Of a stretch of 64,000 nucleotides of DNA, positions 55,248-61,443 are shown in pieces. The stretch comes from Thermodesulfobacterium hveragerdense DSM 12571 (GTDB lineage Bacteria > Desulfobacterota > Thermodesulfobacteria > Thermodesulfobacteriales > Thermodesulfobacteriaceae). The stretch is from positions 62,001 to 126,000 of the forward strand of contig NZ_AUIT01000002.1 in NCBI RefSeq assembly GCF_000423845.1, given 5' to 3'. The position numbers were made by a program, and so were the translations under genes. Under the pieces are notes generated by a model. It did not search any database. It saw nothing but the letters and a program-made list of their open reading frames with translations, and was not told the origin of the DNA. The number at the start of each line of letters is the position of its first letter. Within the stretch, counting starts at the first letter, position 1.

Positions 55248-55352
55248 AATATTCAATTGTTCAAAAAATCACATATCCTAAAATTCCTTTTTAAATTTTT
55301 ATAAAATTTAAGAATAGAAAAAGTATTCAAATATTGGTAGGAGGTGGGGAAC

Positions 55353-57068
55353 ATGAAAAAGTTTGAAAATTTGAGTATAAAAAATAAGCTTTTGCTTTTA
55401 GTCTTTTTTTCTTTATTTGGTTATATAATATTTTTCCTTTTACAATCTACTTACTTAAAAGAATCTATTCTAAAAGAAAAAAAGGTAGAACTAATTCAAA
55501 AAGGAGAGATGGCCTTATCTATAGTAGAATATTACTACAGTCTTTATAAAGCTGGGAATCTTACCGAAGAAGAGGCTAAAGAAAAGGCAAAGCTTGCCAT
55601 AAAAAACTTACGTTATGAAGAAAGAACTAACTATTTCTGGATAAATGATGGAAGTCTCCCCTATCCGATAATGGTAATGCATCCAACGGTTCCTCAGCTT
55701 GAAGGAAAACCTCTTTCTGACACCAAATTCAACGTAGCATACAAACGACAGACTGACCTTAATGCAAAAGAGGAAAAGGTAAACAATCAAAATCTTTTTA
55801 CTCTTTTGGTAGAAACTGCAGGTAAAACAGGACAGGCTTTTGTTTGGTACAAATGGCCTAAACCGTTAAAAGGGGGAGGAGTAACTAAAGAAGTTTATCC
55901 TAAACTTTCCTATGTCGTAAAGTTTGAACCATGGAACTGGTATATAGGAACAGGGGTTTATATTGATGATGTCGATAAAGCTTTTATACAAGCTATGAAG
56001 AGAAATAGTATAAAAACTGGCTTAGCTGTGTTAATAATTTTACTTATCACAGGATTTTTGGCTATTTTATCTGTCCGTTCTATTTCTATACCAATCTCTG
56101 AATTAGAAGAAAAAATAAAAAAATTTGGACAGGGACATCTAAACATCGAGTTTAAAACCCAAAGAAAAGATGAAATAGGTAAAATTGCTAACAGCTTAGA
56201 TGATGCTATTAGCAACCTCAAGGGAATTCTTTTAAGTATCAAAGAAGTTTCAGAAAGTCTTTCTGATTCAGCCAATGGTCTAACTGAAGTGTCTAATCAG
56301 TTCAAAATAAGCCTTGACCTCCAAACCCAGCAAGCAACCCAGATTGCCTCTGCTGCAGAAGAAATGTCCATTACTGTGGTTGATATCGCTAAAAACACGA
56401 CAAGCATTTTAGAAGAAAGTAAAAAAACAGCAGAAATTGCCAAAGAAGGTGAAACCTATATTTTAAAAACCGCAAATGAAGTTAAAATAATAGAAAAAAC
56501 AGCAGAAAAACTAAAAGAAGTCATGTATAGTTTAGAAGAAAGGACCAGGGCAATAGAGAGTGTGGTAGAGTTTATCAAGGATGTGGCAGAGCAGACCAAT
56601 TTACTTGCATTAAACGCAACGATTGAGGCAGCCCGAGCTGGAGAGCATGGAAAATCTTTTGCGGTTGTTGCAGGGGAGATAAGAAAATTAGCAGAAAGAA
56701 CTAACAAATCAACCGATGAGATAGCAGGTGTTATAAGGGAGATAAAGGGAGTGGTAGAGGAGGTGAGTAGGGAGGTAGAGGAGATAGGTGCTAAGGTTGA
56801 GAGTGGTGCAAGGCTTAGTGAGGAGGCATCAGGGATTCTTAGTAGGATAGCAGATGCGGCAGAAAGATTGCAGGAGATGATACAGAGCATTGCAAGTGCG
56901 ACAGAGGAGATGAGTGTGACAGCAGAGGCTGTAGCAAAGGATGTGGGCAGTGTGGCAGAGGCAGCCAAGGAGCTTGAGGCAGGGGTTGAGCAGGTGGTTG
57001 CTACAACGACTGAGGTTGCCAAACTTGGGAATGAGCTTAAGACCGCGGTAGAGAAATTTAGGGTTTAG
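55353..57068 (+). CDS. Methyl-accepting chemotaxis protein with single Cache (sCache_2) domain
   Basis: 571 residues. Membrane helix 1 spans about 11-30. An sCache_2-type sensor (about 35-210) has [20 protein letters not shown] and [15 protein letters not shown], typical of sensors for small organic acids. Helix 2, HAMP and the signalling coiled coil with tip [20 protein letters not shown] follow. GGAGG precedes the ATG at 55353; an upstream in-frame start at 55344 is less likely. Bases 56541-56917 are identical to part of the MCP at 58114, and codon choice shifts toward GAG and AGG in that tract. Confidence 0.95.
56541..56917 (+). repeat. 377-bp direct repeat, copy 1 (MCP signalling domain)
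   Basis: Read base by base, this stretch is identical to 59209-59585 and is flanked by diverged sequence on both sides. It encodes the signalling tip and the following helix of the chemoreceptor. It fits recent gene conversion or recombination between paralogues. Confidence 0.9.
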
Positions 57069-57082
57069 TTTGTATAAAGTTT

Positions 57083-57520
57083 ATGATAAAAGTTTATGTA
57101 GATGGGGCTTGTTTGGGGAATCCAGGTCCTGGAGGCTGGGCGGTTTTGATTTTAGATGATGGTCGAGAACATTTGATTACAGGTGGGGAAGAAGTAACCA
57201 CCAACAACCGGATGGAGCTTGAGGCAGTCCTCCAGGCCCTTTCTTTTTTTAAACAACCTACTGAAATTACCATTTTTTGTGATTCAGAATATGTGATAAA
57301 AGGTGCAACACAGTGGCTTTCTAACTGGAAGAAAAAAGTTTATAGGACTGCAGACGGAAAACCGGTTAAAAATAGGGACTTATGGGAAAAACTTGATGAA
57401 CTTCTCAAGTTTCATAAGGTTTCTTTTCAAAAGGTTTCTGCCCACAGTGGAGATCCTTTAAACGAAAAGGTAGACCAAATAGCTAAGAAAAGTGCTCAGA
57501 GATGGAAAAAAGATATTTAG
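57083..57520 (+). CDS. rnhA: Ribonuclease HI
   Basis: It cuts RNA in RNA-DNA hybrids. 145 residues. The catalytic acidic residues are in VYVDGACLGNPGPGG (Asp), NNRMELEAVLQAL (Glu), FCDSEYVIKG (Asp) and the last Asp in EKVDQIAKK. WLSNWKKKVYRTADGKPVKN is the basic substrate-binding region. It lies between two MCP genes and overlaps ubiX by 19 nt. Confidence 0.97.
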   Translation: MIKVYVDGACLGNPGPGGWAVLILDDGREHLITGGEEVTTNNRMELEAVLQALSFFKQPTEITIFCDSEYVIKGATQWLSNWKKKVYRTADGKPVKNRDLWEKLDELLKFHKVSFQKVSAHSGDPLNEKVDQIAKKSAQRWKKDI

Positions 57521-58074
57521 TAGGTATAACAGGGGCAAGTGGAGCGATTTATGCAAAGTTTTTTTTACAGGAACTAAGGGAGTTAGGGGTTAAAACTGAG
57601 GTAATTATTACAGAGGCAGGAAAAAGGGTTTGGGAGGCAGAGTTAAACTCTTCGTGGGATGGTCTAAAAGATTTAGCTTTTAAGGTTTATCAGGAAAGGG
57701 AAATTTCAGCTCCACCTGCCAGTGGTTCTTCTTTATATTCTGGGATGGTGGTCATACCTTGCAGTATGGGGACGTTAGGGGCTATTGCTCATGGAGTTTC
57801 AAGAAATCTGCTTCAAAGGGCGGCAGACGTGATGTTAAAGGAGAGAAGGCCTTTAGTTTTAGTGGTGAGAGAAACCCCTCTAAACTTTATTCACATAAAA
57901 AACATGGAAGCTTGTCTTAAGGCAGGAGCTGTTATTTTTCCAGCCATGCCCTCGTTTTATCAAAGACCTAAGACTTTAGAGGAGCTGGTAGACTTTTTTG
58001 TGAAAAGGCTTCTTATGTTTCTGGGTTTTAACCCCCAAGGTTTTAAGAGCTGGGAAGAAATCTGCGAAAGTTAA
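57502..58074 (+). CDS. ubiX: Flavin prenyltransferase UbiX
   Basis: It makes prenylated FMN, the cofactor of UbiD-type decarboxylases. 190 residues, the usual size. Motifs: GITGASGAIYAKFF at the N-terminus, VVIPCSMGTLGAIAHGVSRNLLQRAADV, split here as PCSMGTLGAIAHG and LLQRAADVMLKERRPL, and RETPLNFIHIKNM. No ubiD is adjacent. It overlaps rnhA by 19 nt. Confidence 0.96.
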   Translation: MEKRYLVGITGASGAIYAKFFLQELRELGVKTEVIITEAGKRVWEAELNSSWDGLKDLAFKVYQEREISAPPASGSSLYSGMVVIPCSMGTLGAIAHGVSRNLLQRAADVMLKERRPLVLVVRETPLNFIHIKNMEACLKAGAVIFPAMPSFYQRPKTLEELVDFFVKRLLMFLGFNPQGFKSWEEICES

Positions 58075-58113
58075 CTTGGTTATAAGGTAAAAATAAAAAA
58101 ATAGGAGGTAAAG

Positions 58114-59736
58114 ATGTTTAAAAACTGGAGTATTACCAAAAAGCTTCTTGCAGGTTTTGGTGTTATCTTTTTTATAGTCGGCCTTGTATCTTTCTATACT
58201 TTATATTCTTTGTTTATTGTGAAAAAAGACGTTCAGGATTTAGGAGAAAGAGCGGACAAGCTCGAGATGGCTGCTAAGGTTAGAAGAGAGACTATGGTAG
58301 GTGTTCACTATAACGTCACCAAACTTCTTTTAACGAATGATCCGGAAAAAAGAAAGGAGTATTATAACGAAATCCTTAAAGCTCGAGAGGAGTATAAGAA
58401 AGCTATGGATTTTCTTAAGTCTGTTACCCGATCAGAGGAAGGAAAAAGACTTTTGCAAAACGTGCAAGATTCTATAGTTTCAGCAAGAGAGTTAACCAAC
58501 AAAACCCTTGAACTTGTCTTAGCAGGTAAAACTTTGGAGGCTATCTCTTTTTATGAAAAAGAGGTGATTCCTAAAACCAAGACGATTGAAAAAGCTCTTA
58601 ACGAGCTGGTTGCCTTTTATGCAAAAACTGCTGACGAAAGAGGTCATGAAGTATCAATTTGCATCAAACGTCTTTTTGTTATTTTGTTTGTATTTGGAGG
58701 AATTTTTATAGTTATTTCTTTGGTTGTAGTTTTTGGTGTGACTAAATCTATCAGGGGTTCTATCGAGAGGTTAAGGCAGGCTTTGGCAAGGGTAAGGGAA
58801 GGGGATCTTGCGGTTGAGATAGCTGTTGACAGTCGAGATGAAATAGGAACGATGAGTGCTGACCTCAGAGAGGCATTAGTTAGCATTAGAAATCTTATAG
58901 ATGAGGTCAAGCATGTGTCAGTTGCCCTTGCTGGGTCAAGTGAGGAGTTATCTGCCATAACCAAGCAGTTTAGTGCAAGTATTGAGAATCAGACTCAAAA
59001 GGCAACTCAGATTGCAAGCGCAGCAGAACAGATGTCTATTACGGTGGTTGACATAGCTAAAAACACAACCAACATACTTGAAGAGAGTAAAAAGACAGCT
59101 GAGATTGCAAGGGAAGGGGAGAACTATACTTTAAAAACAGCAAATGAGGTTAAGGTAATAGAAAGGAATGCAGGGAAGTTGAAGGAAGTTATGTACAGTT
59201 TAGAGGAGAGGACCAGGGCAATAGAGAGTGTGGTAGAGTTTATCAAGGATGTGGCAGAGCAGACCAATTTACTTGCATTAAACGCAACGATTGAGGCAGC
59301 CCGAGCTGGAGAGCATGGAAAATCTTTTGCGGTTGTTGCAGGGGAGATAAGAAAATTAGCAGAAAGAACTAACAAATCAACCGATGAGATAGCAGGTGTT
59401 ATAAGGGAGATAAAGGGAGTGGTAGAGGAGGTGAGTAGGGAGGTAGAGGAGATAGGTGCTAAGGTTGAGAGTGGTGCAAGGCTTAGTGAGGAGGCATCAG
59501 GGATTCTTAGTAGGATAGCAGATGCGGCAGAAAGATTGCAGGAGATGATACAGAGCATTGCAAGTGCGACAGAGGAGATGAGTGTTACGTCTGAGTCAGT
59601 AGCTAAGGATGTAGGTAGTGTGGCGGAAGGAATACAAGAACTAAAAAGAAACATCTTTTCCCTTCTTGAAACCACGGAAGGTATAAAAAAAATGGAAGAA
59701 GAACTAAGAAAAAAAGCCTCTATTTTTACCCTTTAA
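58114..59736 (+). CDS. Methyl-accepting chemotaxis protein with helical (4HB-type) sensor
   Basis: 540 residues. Membrane helix 1 (about 9-30) precedes an all-helical periplasmic domain (about 32-188) of the four-helix-bundle class, with no Cache motif. Helix 2 (about 190-212), HAMP (about 213-265) and a signalling coiled coil follow. The stretch 59209-59585 is identical to the MCP at 55353. The two proteins differ before and after it, notably at the C-terminus. GGAGG precedes the start. It probably shares transcription with rnhA-ubiX. Confidence 0.95.
59209..59585 (+). repeat. 377-bp direct repeat, copy 2 (MCP signalling domain)
   Basis: Identical to 56541-56917 at an offset of 2668 bp. The repeat pair brackets rnhA, ubiX and the 5' part of this MCP, so recombination between the copies would delete them. 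Confidence 0.9.
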
Positions 59737-59759: not shown

Positions 59760-59792
59760 GTTTAAACAATATTAATTTTAAAGGAGATTTGT

Positions 59793-60563
59793 ATGGATAG
59801 AGAAACCTTGATAAAAGGAATGGTGCTTTATGAAGATATCGACCACAAGTTTATCTGGTTAGGATGGGAAGAAGAGGAAGAAGAAGGGTTGGTACAGACT
59901 AATCAATATCTGATCATAAATAAAGGAAAGGGGATTCTTCTTGATCCAGGTGGGGTGTATGTTTTCCCTCGGGTTTTAGCCGCTGTTGCCAACTACATAA
60001 ATATTGAAAACATAGAATATATCTTCTTTTCCCATCAAGACCCTGACGTAAGCTCAGGACTAATTACCTGGTTGGAAAACACCAACGCCAAGGTTTATAT
60101 CAGCAAACTTTGGACAAGGTTTATTCCCCATTTTGGTTACAATTCTTTAAAGCGGACCATTCCTTTAGAAGATAAAGGGGGAGAATTAACTTTGGGTTCA
60201 GGTGATAAACTTTTGTTTATACCTGCTCATTTTCTTCATTCTAAGGGAAATTTTTCCATATTTGATACGCGAAGCAAAATTTTGTTTTCCGGAGACATAG
60301 GGGCTGCTGTTTTTCCTAAAGGCCAGAGATATCTTTTTGTAGAAAACTTTGAAAACCATGTAAAACTTATGGAAGGTTTCCATAAAAGATATATGGGAAG
60401 CAATAAAGTATGCAAAAAATGGGTTAACTCAGTCAAACCTCTTAATCCAACCATTATAGCTCCTCAACATGGAGCAATTTTTAAGGGAGAGAATGTAAAG
60501 AAATTTCTCAACTGGTTTGAGAACTTAAGTTGTGGGCTTGACATTATAGATCAAATTTATTAA
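59793..60563 (+). CDS. ODP-like diiron metallo-beta-lactamase-fold protein (oxygen sensor candidate)
   Basis: 256 residues, a single metallo-beta-lactamase-fold domain of the flavodiiron/ODP type without a flavodoxin domain. The diiron ligands line up: His81, Asp83 and Asp85 in SHQDPD; His146 in AHFLHS; Asp168 in FSGDIGA; His226 in PQHGA. In Treponema denticola, ODP binds oxygen or iron and reports to a chemoreceptor. Here the next gene, 16 nt away, is a soluble MCP. A strong AAAGGAGA precedes the start. The alternative is an oxygen-reducing flavodiiron fragment, which would need a partner for electrons. Confidence 0.8.
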   Translation: MDRETLIKGMVLYEDIDHKFIWLGWEEEEEEGLVQTNQYLIINKGKGILLDPGGVYVFPRVLAAVANYINIENIEYIFFSHQDPDVSSGLITWLENTNAKVYISKLWTRFIPHFGYNSLKRTIPLEDKGGELTLGSGDKLLFIPAHFLHSKGNFSIFDTRSKILFSGDIGAAVFPKGQRYLFVENFENHVKLMEGFHKRYMGSNKVCKKWVNSVKPLNPTIIAPQHGAIFKGENVKKFLNWFENLSCGLDIIDQIY

Positions 60564-60579
60564 CCTTTAGGGGAAAAAC

Positions 60580-61443
60580 ATGTTCAACTTTTTTAAAAAA
60601 GAAACCAAAGCATTTAATCTCACTTCAACTTTTTCCCCCTACCCTATCAACCTAAGAAAAGTAGCACAAAAACTTTGGAAATTTTCTTACATAAAAAGTT
60701 TGTCAAATTATGTTTCTAAGGCTCTTATAAAAGCTTTACAACTTTCACAAGAATCTGGTAAATATATTTCTTCTTTGGTAGAAAAGTTTAATTTTGCCAT
60801 CCAAACCCTTTCAGAAAAAATATTACCCATAAAATCTGAAACAGATAACTTGGTAAAAAAATCTGAGGAGTCAAAAGAAAAGATAAACGTTATGATAGAA
60901 GAGGTAAAAGTTATAGAAAGCAGCCTTAAAAATTTTGTAGAGACCTCAAAAAAAATGCAAAACTCGTTCCAAGAAATCAAAAATTCTTTGACAGAAATTC
61001 ATAACATCGCAGACCAAACGACTATCTTGTCCCTGAACGCATCTATTGAGGCTGCTCGAGTGGGATTAGCTGGAAAAGGTTTTACTGTGCTTGCTGAAGA
61101 AATTAGGAAATTAGCTAACAAAACCAATCAGTTTGCTAAACACATTAACGAAAGCATCCTTTCTGTAGAAAAAAACATCAACTTTTTTACCACCTCGATC
61201 TTTGCCCTTAAAGAAAGCTTAGATAAAAGCATCGCAACCTTAAAGGAACTATATTCTTTTATAGATTCTAACCATCAGATGGCTGAAAATGTAGAAAGAT
61301 TGATAAATGATATGTTTTTAGCCATAGAAGAGCAAGTTAAAATTACAGAAGAGATTACTCAAAACATGGTTAACCTTTCAAAAAATTTAGAAATTACGGA
61401 GAAGCAACTTCAATCTATAGTGATACAGTTTAAAAAGATTTAA
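60580..61443 (+). CDS. Soluble MCP signalling protein paired with the ODP-like sensor
   Basis: 287 residues with no membrane helix. The N-terminal 75 residues are an unassigned helical region, possibly the ODP contact. The rest is a chemoreceptor coiled coil with the tip ADQTTILSLNASIEAARVG and EEIRKLANKTNQF. The tip is more diverged than in the three membrane MCPs of this window, which all keep [15 protein letters not shown]. It is short, with a minimal signalling bundle. It is placed directly after the ODP-like gene and converges on the epimerase gene with a 7-nt gap. Confidence 0.88.
   Translation: MFNFFKKETKAFNLTSTFSPYPINLRKVAQKLWKFSYIKSLSNYVSKALIKALQLSQESGKYISSLVEKFNFAIQTLSEKILPIKSETDNLVKKSEESKEKINVMIEEVKVIESSLKNFVETSKKMQNSFQEIKNSLTEIHNIADQTTILSLNASIEAARVGLAGKGFTVLAEEIRKLANKTNQFAKHINESILSVEKNINFFTTSIFALKESLDKSIATLKELYSFIDSNHQMAENVERLINDMFLAIEEQVKITEEITQNMVNLSKNLEITEKQLQSIVIQFKKI

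Follow-up and report, generated by a model that had tools for sequence, protein, structure and literature searches.

The gene pair and its surroundings

The window, a stretch of 64,000 nucleotides from Thermodesulfobacterium hveragerdense DSM 12571 (contig NZ_AUIT01000002.1, positions 62,001 to 126,000), carries a gene for an oxygen-binding di-iron protein (ODP) followed on the same strand by a gene for a soluble chemoreceptor (MCP). Both reading frames were found where the original prediction had placed them, with exactly 16 nt in between (Table 1).

Table 1. Features of the ODP-MCP locus, numbered from the first letter of the window
Feature	Position	Strand	Basis
Neighbouring membrane MCP, upstream of ODP by 56 nt	58114..59736	+	the other three Thermodesulfobacterium loci likewise have an MCP upstream on the same strand
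AAAGGAG ribosome-binding site of ODP, 6 nt upstream	59780..59786	+	read from sequence
ODP gene, oxygen-binding di-iron protein, 256 aa, ATG start	59793..60563	+	PF19583; solved ODPs; fold match
His81, Asp83 and Asp85 codons (HQDPD motif); Val86 at the fourth flavodiiron His position	60033..60047	+	alignment with 12 flavodiiron proteins
His146 codon, ligand of the original prediction	60228-60230	+
His149 codon, aligned with flavodiiron ligand His	60237..60239	+	same 12-protein alignment
Asp168 codon, bridging ligand equivalent	60294..60296	+	no variation among ODPs or flavodiiron proteins
Gln225-His226 codons (PQHG); Gln as replacement ligand specific to ODPs	60465..60470	+	conservation; PMC7785958
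Intergenic gap of 16 nt with AGGGG ribosome-binding site for MCP	60564..60579	+	read from sequence
Soluble chemoreceptor (MCP), 287 aa, partner of ODP	60580..61443	+	PF00015; ODP-coupled MCP profile
MCP residues 21-58, N-terminal helical segment, candidate ODP docking site	60640..60753	+	29-MCP alignment; predicted helix
MCP hairpin tip, residues 147-170	61018..61089	+

In a Pfam search, the first protein matched PF19583 (ODP) at 265.6 bits (E 3.6e-79, cut-off 27.2), residues 34-227 covering positions 1-194 of 194 and therefore the full model, and the second matched MCPsignal (PF00015) at 106.6 bits. Between species, dN/dS was 0.04-0.07 for the ODP and 0.06-0.11 for the MCP; these ratios indicate strong purifying selection on both. 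Because of the two profile scores and of dN/dS values between 0.04 and 0.11, the reading frames are not chance occurrences. No membrane helix was found in the MCP, as had been predicted, its highest 19-residue Kyte-Doolittle mean being 0.93, and the ODP gene lies directly beside this soluble receptor that has neither a transmembrane nor a sensing domain.

A search for promoters in the 56-nt gap before the ODP gene returned no site on the + strand, and the whole region was at shuffle expectation. Further upstream, positions 55344-59736 hold two membrane MCPs with a nearly identical signalling domain, which suggests a recent duplication or gene conversion. Between them lie an RNase H-like gene and a UbiX-type flavin prenyltransferase-like gene, both named by reading the sequence.

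The CheA, CheW and flagella expected in the host of a chemotaxis module are all represented in the 1.73 Mb genome, where a dozen MCP matches exceed the family cut-off and two CheA, CheX, flagellin and several CheW domains occur. The CheA domains are Hpt, dimer, ATPase, CheW and receiver. A CheA of 904 aa (L132:1398-4112, G000:C29) combines two CheW-like domains with a receiver at its C-terminus; genes for CheW and CheX adjoin it.

Fold and iron ligands of the ODP

The AlphaFold2 model of the ODP (pLDDT 91.6, pTM 0.91) was compared with solved structures by Foldseek. It matched the solved ODPs at TM 0.87-0.94, the highest value belonging to T. maritima 6qwo/6qrq, as against about 0.7 for flavodiiron proteins and about 0.56-0.60 for hydrolytic lactamases. 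Since 6qwo stands at 0.94 and the lactamases only at about 0.56-0.60, the protein is not placed among the ordinary hydrolytic enzymes of the beta-lactamase fold, the outcome that would have contradicted the original prediction. Sequence comparison agrees with the fold: identity to the crystallised ODPs is 58% for T. maritima and 55% for T. denticola, and the top matches among solved sequences were 6qrq/6qwo and 6qnm/6r9n, at E about 1e-102. Flavodiiron proteins appeared in the same search at 5e-5 or weaker, so these ODPs are the only strong solved relatives by sequence. Structure names follow the titles in the fold search (6qwo, T. maritima ODP; 6r9n, peroxy di-iron form; 6qnm, T. denticola ODP), with 6qrq and 6r9n allotted to their respective ODP by shared sequences in the solved-structure search. 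The homologue in Thermodesulfobacterium thermophilum DSM 1276 is 96-97% identical.

Based on an alignment with 12 flavodiiron proteins, the ligand set comprises His81, Asp83, Asp85, His149, Asp168 and His226. Five of the six ligands originally predicted are thus retained, while the sixth, His146, gives way to His149: although His146 is also invariant among ODPs, it is by alignment His149 that is the flavodiiron-equivalent ligand. Where the flavodiiron motif HxExDH ends in a fourth His, the window ODP has Val86, a position occupied by Val or Ile across the ODP groups, and Gln225 precedes His226. This His-to-Gln exchange has been described for the T. maritima ODP in PMC7785958, from which we also took the ODP ligand rule as stated there (H, D, D, H, D, H; third His of motif 2 lost; Gln in motif 5). 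The window protein conforms to it with H81, D83, D85, V86, H149, D168, Q225 and H226. Across 60 sequences, conservation of the Gln225-His226 pair reaches 95% or more in each of the two ODP groups, and the pair is invariant in alignment A1.

The HxHxDH zinc motif of hydrolytic metallo-beta-lactamases is absent, residues 81-86 reading HQDPDV; neither the flavodiiron HxExDH motif nor a trailing flavodoxin domain is present, the Pfam search having found no flavodoxin domain in the single-domain, 256-residue protein. A hydrolytic lactamase or a flavodiiron enzyme as the identity of the protein is therefore ruled out by the fold ranking, the motif and the absent flavodoxin domain. These results bear out the earlier assignment to the ODP family and the earlier reading of the protein as an ODP without a flavodoxin domain.

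Conservation of the pair and features of the receptor

In all 47 loci with enough sequence, an MCP gene lies directly downstream of the ODP gene on the same strand. They comprise four Thermodesulfobacterium loci (window included), 13 from Aquificota and 30 from Thermotogota; two Aquificota loci that end inside the MCP and one that ends before it stand outside this count. The pair, whose conservation in related genomes the original prediction had made a decisive point, is thus kept across three phyla, and an unconserved pair is ruled out. Within the genus, a close ODP occurs in 4 of the 14 genomes examined. One close homologue (L070/L114, 61%) has as its neighbour a CZB-domain coiled-coil protein and not an MCP.

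ODP homologues (E <= 1e-15) are present in 116 of 136 Aquificota genomes. CheW is absent from 48 of the 136, and 38 of those 48 have an ODP homologue; CheW is present in every one of the 17 genomes with the close ODP type (Fisher p = 0.0006, ignoring shared descent). An ODP by itself is no proof of chemotaxis, and these counts mean that the case for taxis is made more by the gene pair than by the ODP on its own. In the tree, the 12 loci of the MCP-free type group in a clade of their own with support 100/100. Gln225 and the iron ligands are kept in the aligned ODPs, whether MCP-coupled or MCP-free, but the MCP-free proteins are without the acidic Trp-Glu loop (residues 25-31) and the C-terminal Tyr256, both of which are kept in coupled ODPs.

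Several other arrangements were observed. Aquificota loci L071-L083 represent a separate ODP clade with no MCP neighbour and every iron ligand present, and other Aquificota ODPs (L115, L119, L114, L127-L129) adjoin GGDEF-EAL, Roadblock/LC7, CZB-domain coiled-coil or shorter soluble MCP genes. An Aquificota genome without CheW carries a truncated ODP (G120:C1:961707-962246; residues 78-256, 61% identical), possibly decaying after the loss of chemotaxis. A same-genus genome encodes an ODP-GGDEF fusion of 566 aa (L013:1462-3162), a candidate oxygen-gated diguanylate cyclase, and a second ODP-like match lies inside a 600-aa open frame (G007:C2:62058-62735).

The best match to a profile of ODP-coupled MCPs was the soluble receptor 3g67/3g6b, at 232/228 bits. 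As aligned, the 3g67 chain is letter for letter part of the MCP that follows the ODP in two Thermotogota loci (L097, L098), and the crystallised receptor is therefore an ODP partner. The chain starts at residue 42 of these MCPs, leaving the first 41 residues outside the construct; within the part left out, an alignment of 29 ODP-coupled MCPs shows a helical segment common to them, about 35 residues long and roughly equivalent to residues 21-58 in the window MCP. In the model of the latter, a single long helix runs from residue 21 and residues 1-19 have pLDDT <50; thus, the N-terminus is a short disordered tail and a helix entering the coiled coil. The unassigned 75-residue N-terminus first described is accordingly replaced by about 20 disordered residues and the helical segment of about 35. 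Docking of the ODP at this helix is a plausible proposal, one that comes from the present comparison and not from the Treponema and Thermotoga ODPs.

Two other ideas about this region were discarded. A membrane-binding amphipathic N-terminus was not convincing: the hydrophobic moment was moderate, at most about 0.48 near residues 37-54, and other parts of the coiled coil exceeded it. A charge match between the acidic GWEEEEEE loop of the ODP and a basic MCP N-terminus was dropped because the Thermotogota receptors look, by eye, acidic in that segment.

At the hairpin tip, codon 163 (61066-61068) encodes Leu, whereas nearly all other ODP-coupled MCPs examined have Glu or Asp. The Leu is common to all four Thermodesulfobacterium species, giving a tip sequence of Gly-Leu-Ala-Gly as against Gly-Glu-x-Gly elsewhere, and this genus-specific exchange means that coupling to CheA could differ. 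The receptor stays in register with the membrane MCPs encoded in the genome over the 89 residues that follow the tip, up to an EE[MQ] site at +89; a shared register of this kind would let the soluble MCP join the same array. No consensus methylation site was found in the soluble MCP, a weak test because two of the three membrane MCPs tested also had no strict match.

A proposed sensing module and its known relatives

The two window genes very probably form an ODP-MCP module, in which an oxygen- or iron-sensing ODP signals through the soluble MCP to CheA and biases swimming. By analogy with the Treponema and Thermotoga ODPs, the protein would first take up Fe(II), then O2, at the di-iron site of its metallo-beta-lactamase fold, and its state would be passed by protein contact to the receptor encoded just downstream. 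The receptor would take its place within the cytoplasmic portion of the chemoreceptor array and alter CheA activity, and the change in CheA would bias swimming in oxygen and iron gradients. The cytoplasmic oxygen or iron taxis module of the original prediction is in this way supported by sequence, fold, pair conservation, and Che and flagellar machinery.

Two other explanations were weighed against this module. The protein could be an O2- or NO-scavenging or a hydrolytic enzyme, with the adjacent MCP reflecting a passive operon arrangement; its fold and most of its ligands are common to O2/NO-reducing flavodiiron proteins and metallo-beta-lactamases, and MCP-free ODPs occur in non-chemotactic Aquificota. 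We consider this very unlikely, as the protein lacks a flavodoxin domain, its gene has no obvious electron donor gene as neighbour, the pair holds throughout the 47 loci in three phyla, the nearest solved relatives are deposited as chemotaxis sensor ODPs, and the protein has the ODP-specific Gln225.

Alternatively, the ODP may still be bound by a receptor that no longer activates CheA, its altered tip leaving it silent or inhibitory within the array. The tip Leu in all four species of the genus, set against near-universal Glu or Asp, and the missing consensus methylation site would fit such a receptor. Strong purifying selection on both genes speaks against it, as do a tip that is otherwise conserved, a register kept with the membrane MCPs, and the two membrane MCPs that likewise fail the strict methylation match; we regard it as improbable to the same degree. 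Returning to the ODP-MCP module, a more specific version, with residues 21-58 as a dedicated docking module and the Thermodesulfobacterium tip retuned for CheA contact by the Glu-to-Leu exchange, is possible but rather doubtful.

The 2019 ODP study (PNAS 116:14955) reportedly found coupling of this kind in eight phyla. As PMC7319448 relates, the 2019 study described operons of ODP and MCP in two gene orders, fusions of ODP, and ODPs that share an operon with other signalling genes. The T. denticola ODP is reported to be the oxygen sensor for chemotaxis; coupled to it genetically is TDE2496, an MCP that has neither transmembrane nor sensing modules and is able to modulate CheA (PMC7666581). Interaction of ODP with its cognate receptors has been described as conformation-dependent (PMC6978683). 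The system can thus not be called little-described, as was first thought, since a Pfam family, crystal structures and the 2019 PNAS study exist for ODPs, and operons, fusions and receptor contact are reported in these sources (PMC7319448, PMC6978683, PMC7666581). As a possible relative, CheO of Campylobacter was set aside, its paper giving no known sensory domain.

Compared with the T. maritima ODP (6qrq, 6qwo) and the Thermotoga receptor (3g67, 3g6b), the window module has a 58% identical ODP, the same fold, the same order of ODP then MCP and the same receptor type; it differs in phylum, in a receptor only about 20-22% identical overall and in the Thermodesulfobacterium tip exchange. With T. 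denticola TDE2498 (6qnm, 6r9n) and TDE2496 it shares a 55% identical ODP and a soluble MCP partner without a sensing module, but its host is a thermophilic sulfate reducer. The flavodiiron proteins have the metallo-beta-lactamase fold and most iron ligands in common with the window ODP, which departs from them in lacking a flavodoxin domain, in Val86 for the fourth His of HxExDH and in Gln225 beside His226. Modules of these two genes have already been described, with crystal structures, from Treponema and Thermotoga; the present locus adds a sound example without being a new system. Only details go beyond the published description: the Glu-to-Leu exchange at the tip in this genus, and the residues parting coupled from uncoupled ODPs.

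MCP-free ODPs may have a role outside taxis in non-chemotactic Aquificota, and these proteins are, together with the receptor N-terminal helix left out of the crystal construct, the best leads from this work. In summary, the locus places an ODP-receptor module in a thermophilic sulfate reducer, and the protein pair should be stable for structural work. The comparison offers two handles, the conserved N-terminal segment of the receptor that is missing from the crystal and the ODP residues kept in MCP-coupled but not in MCP-free ODPs, which make the question of ODP-receptor contact testable.
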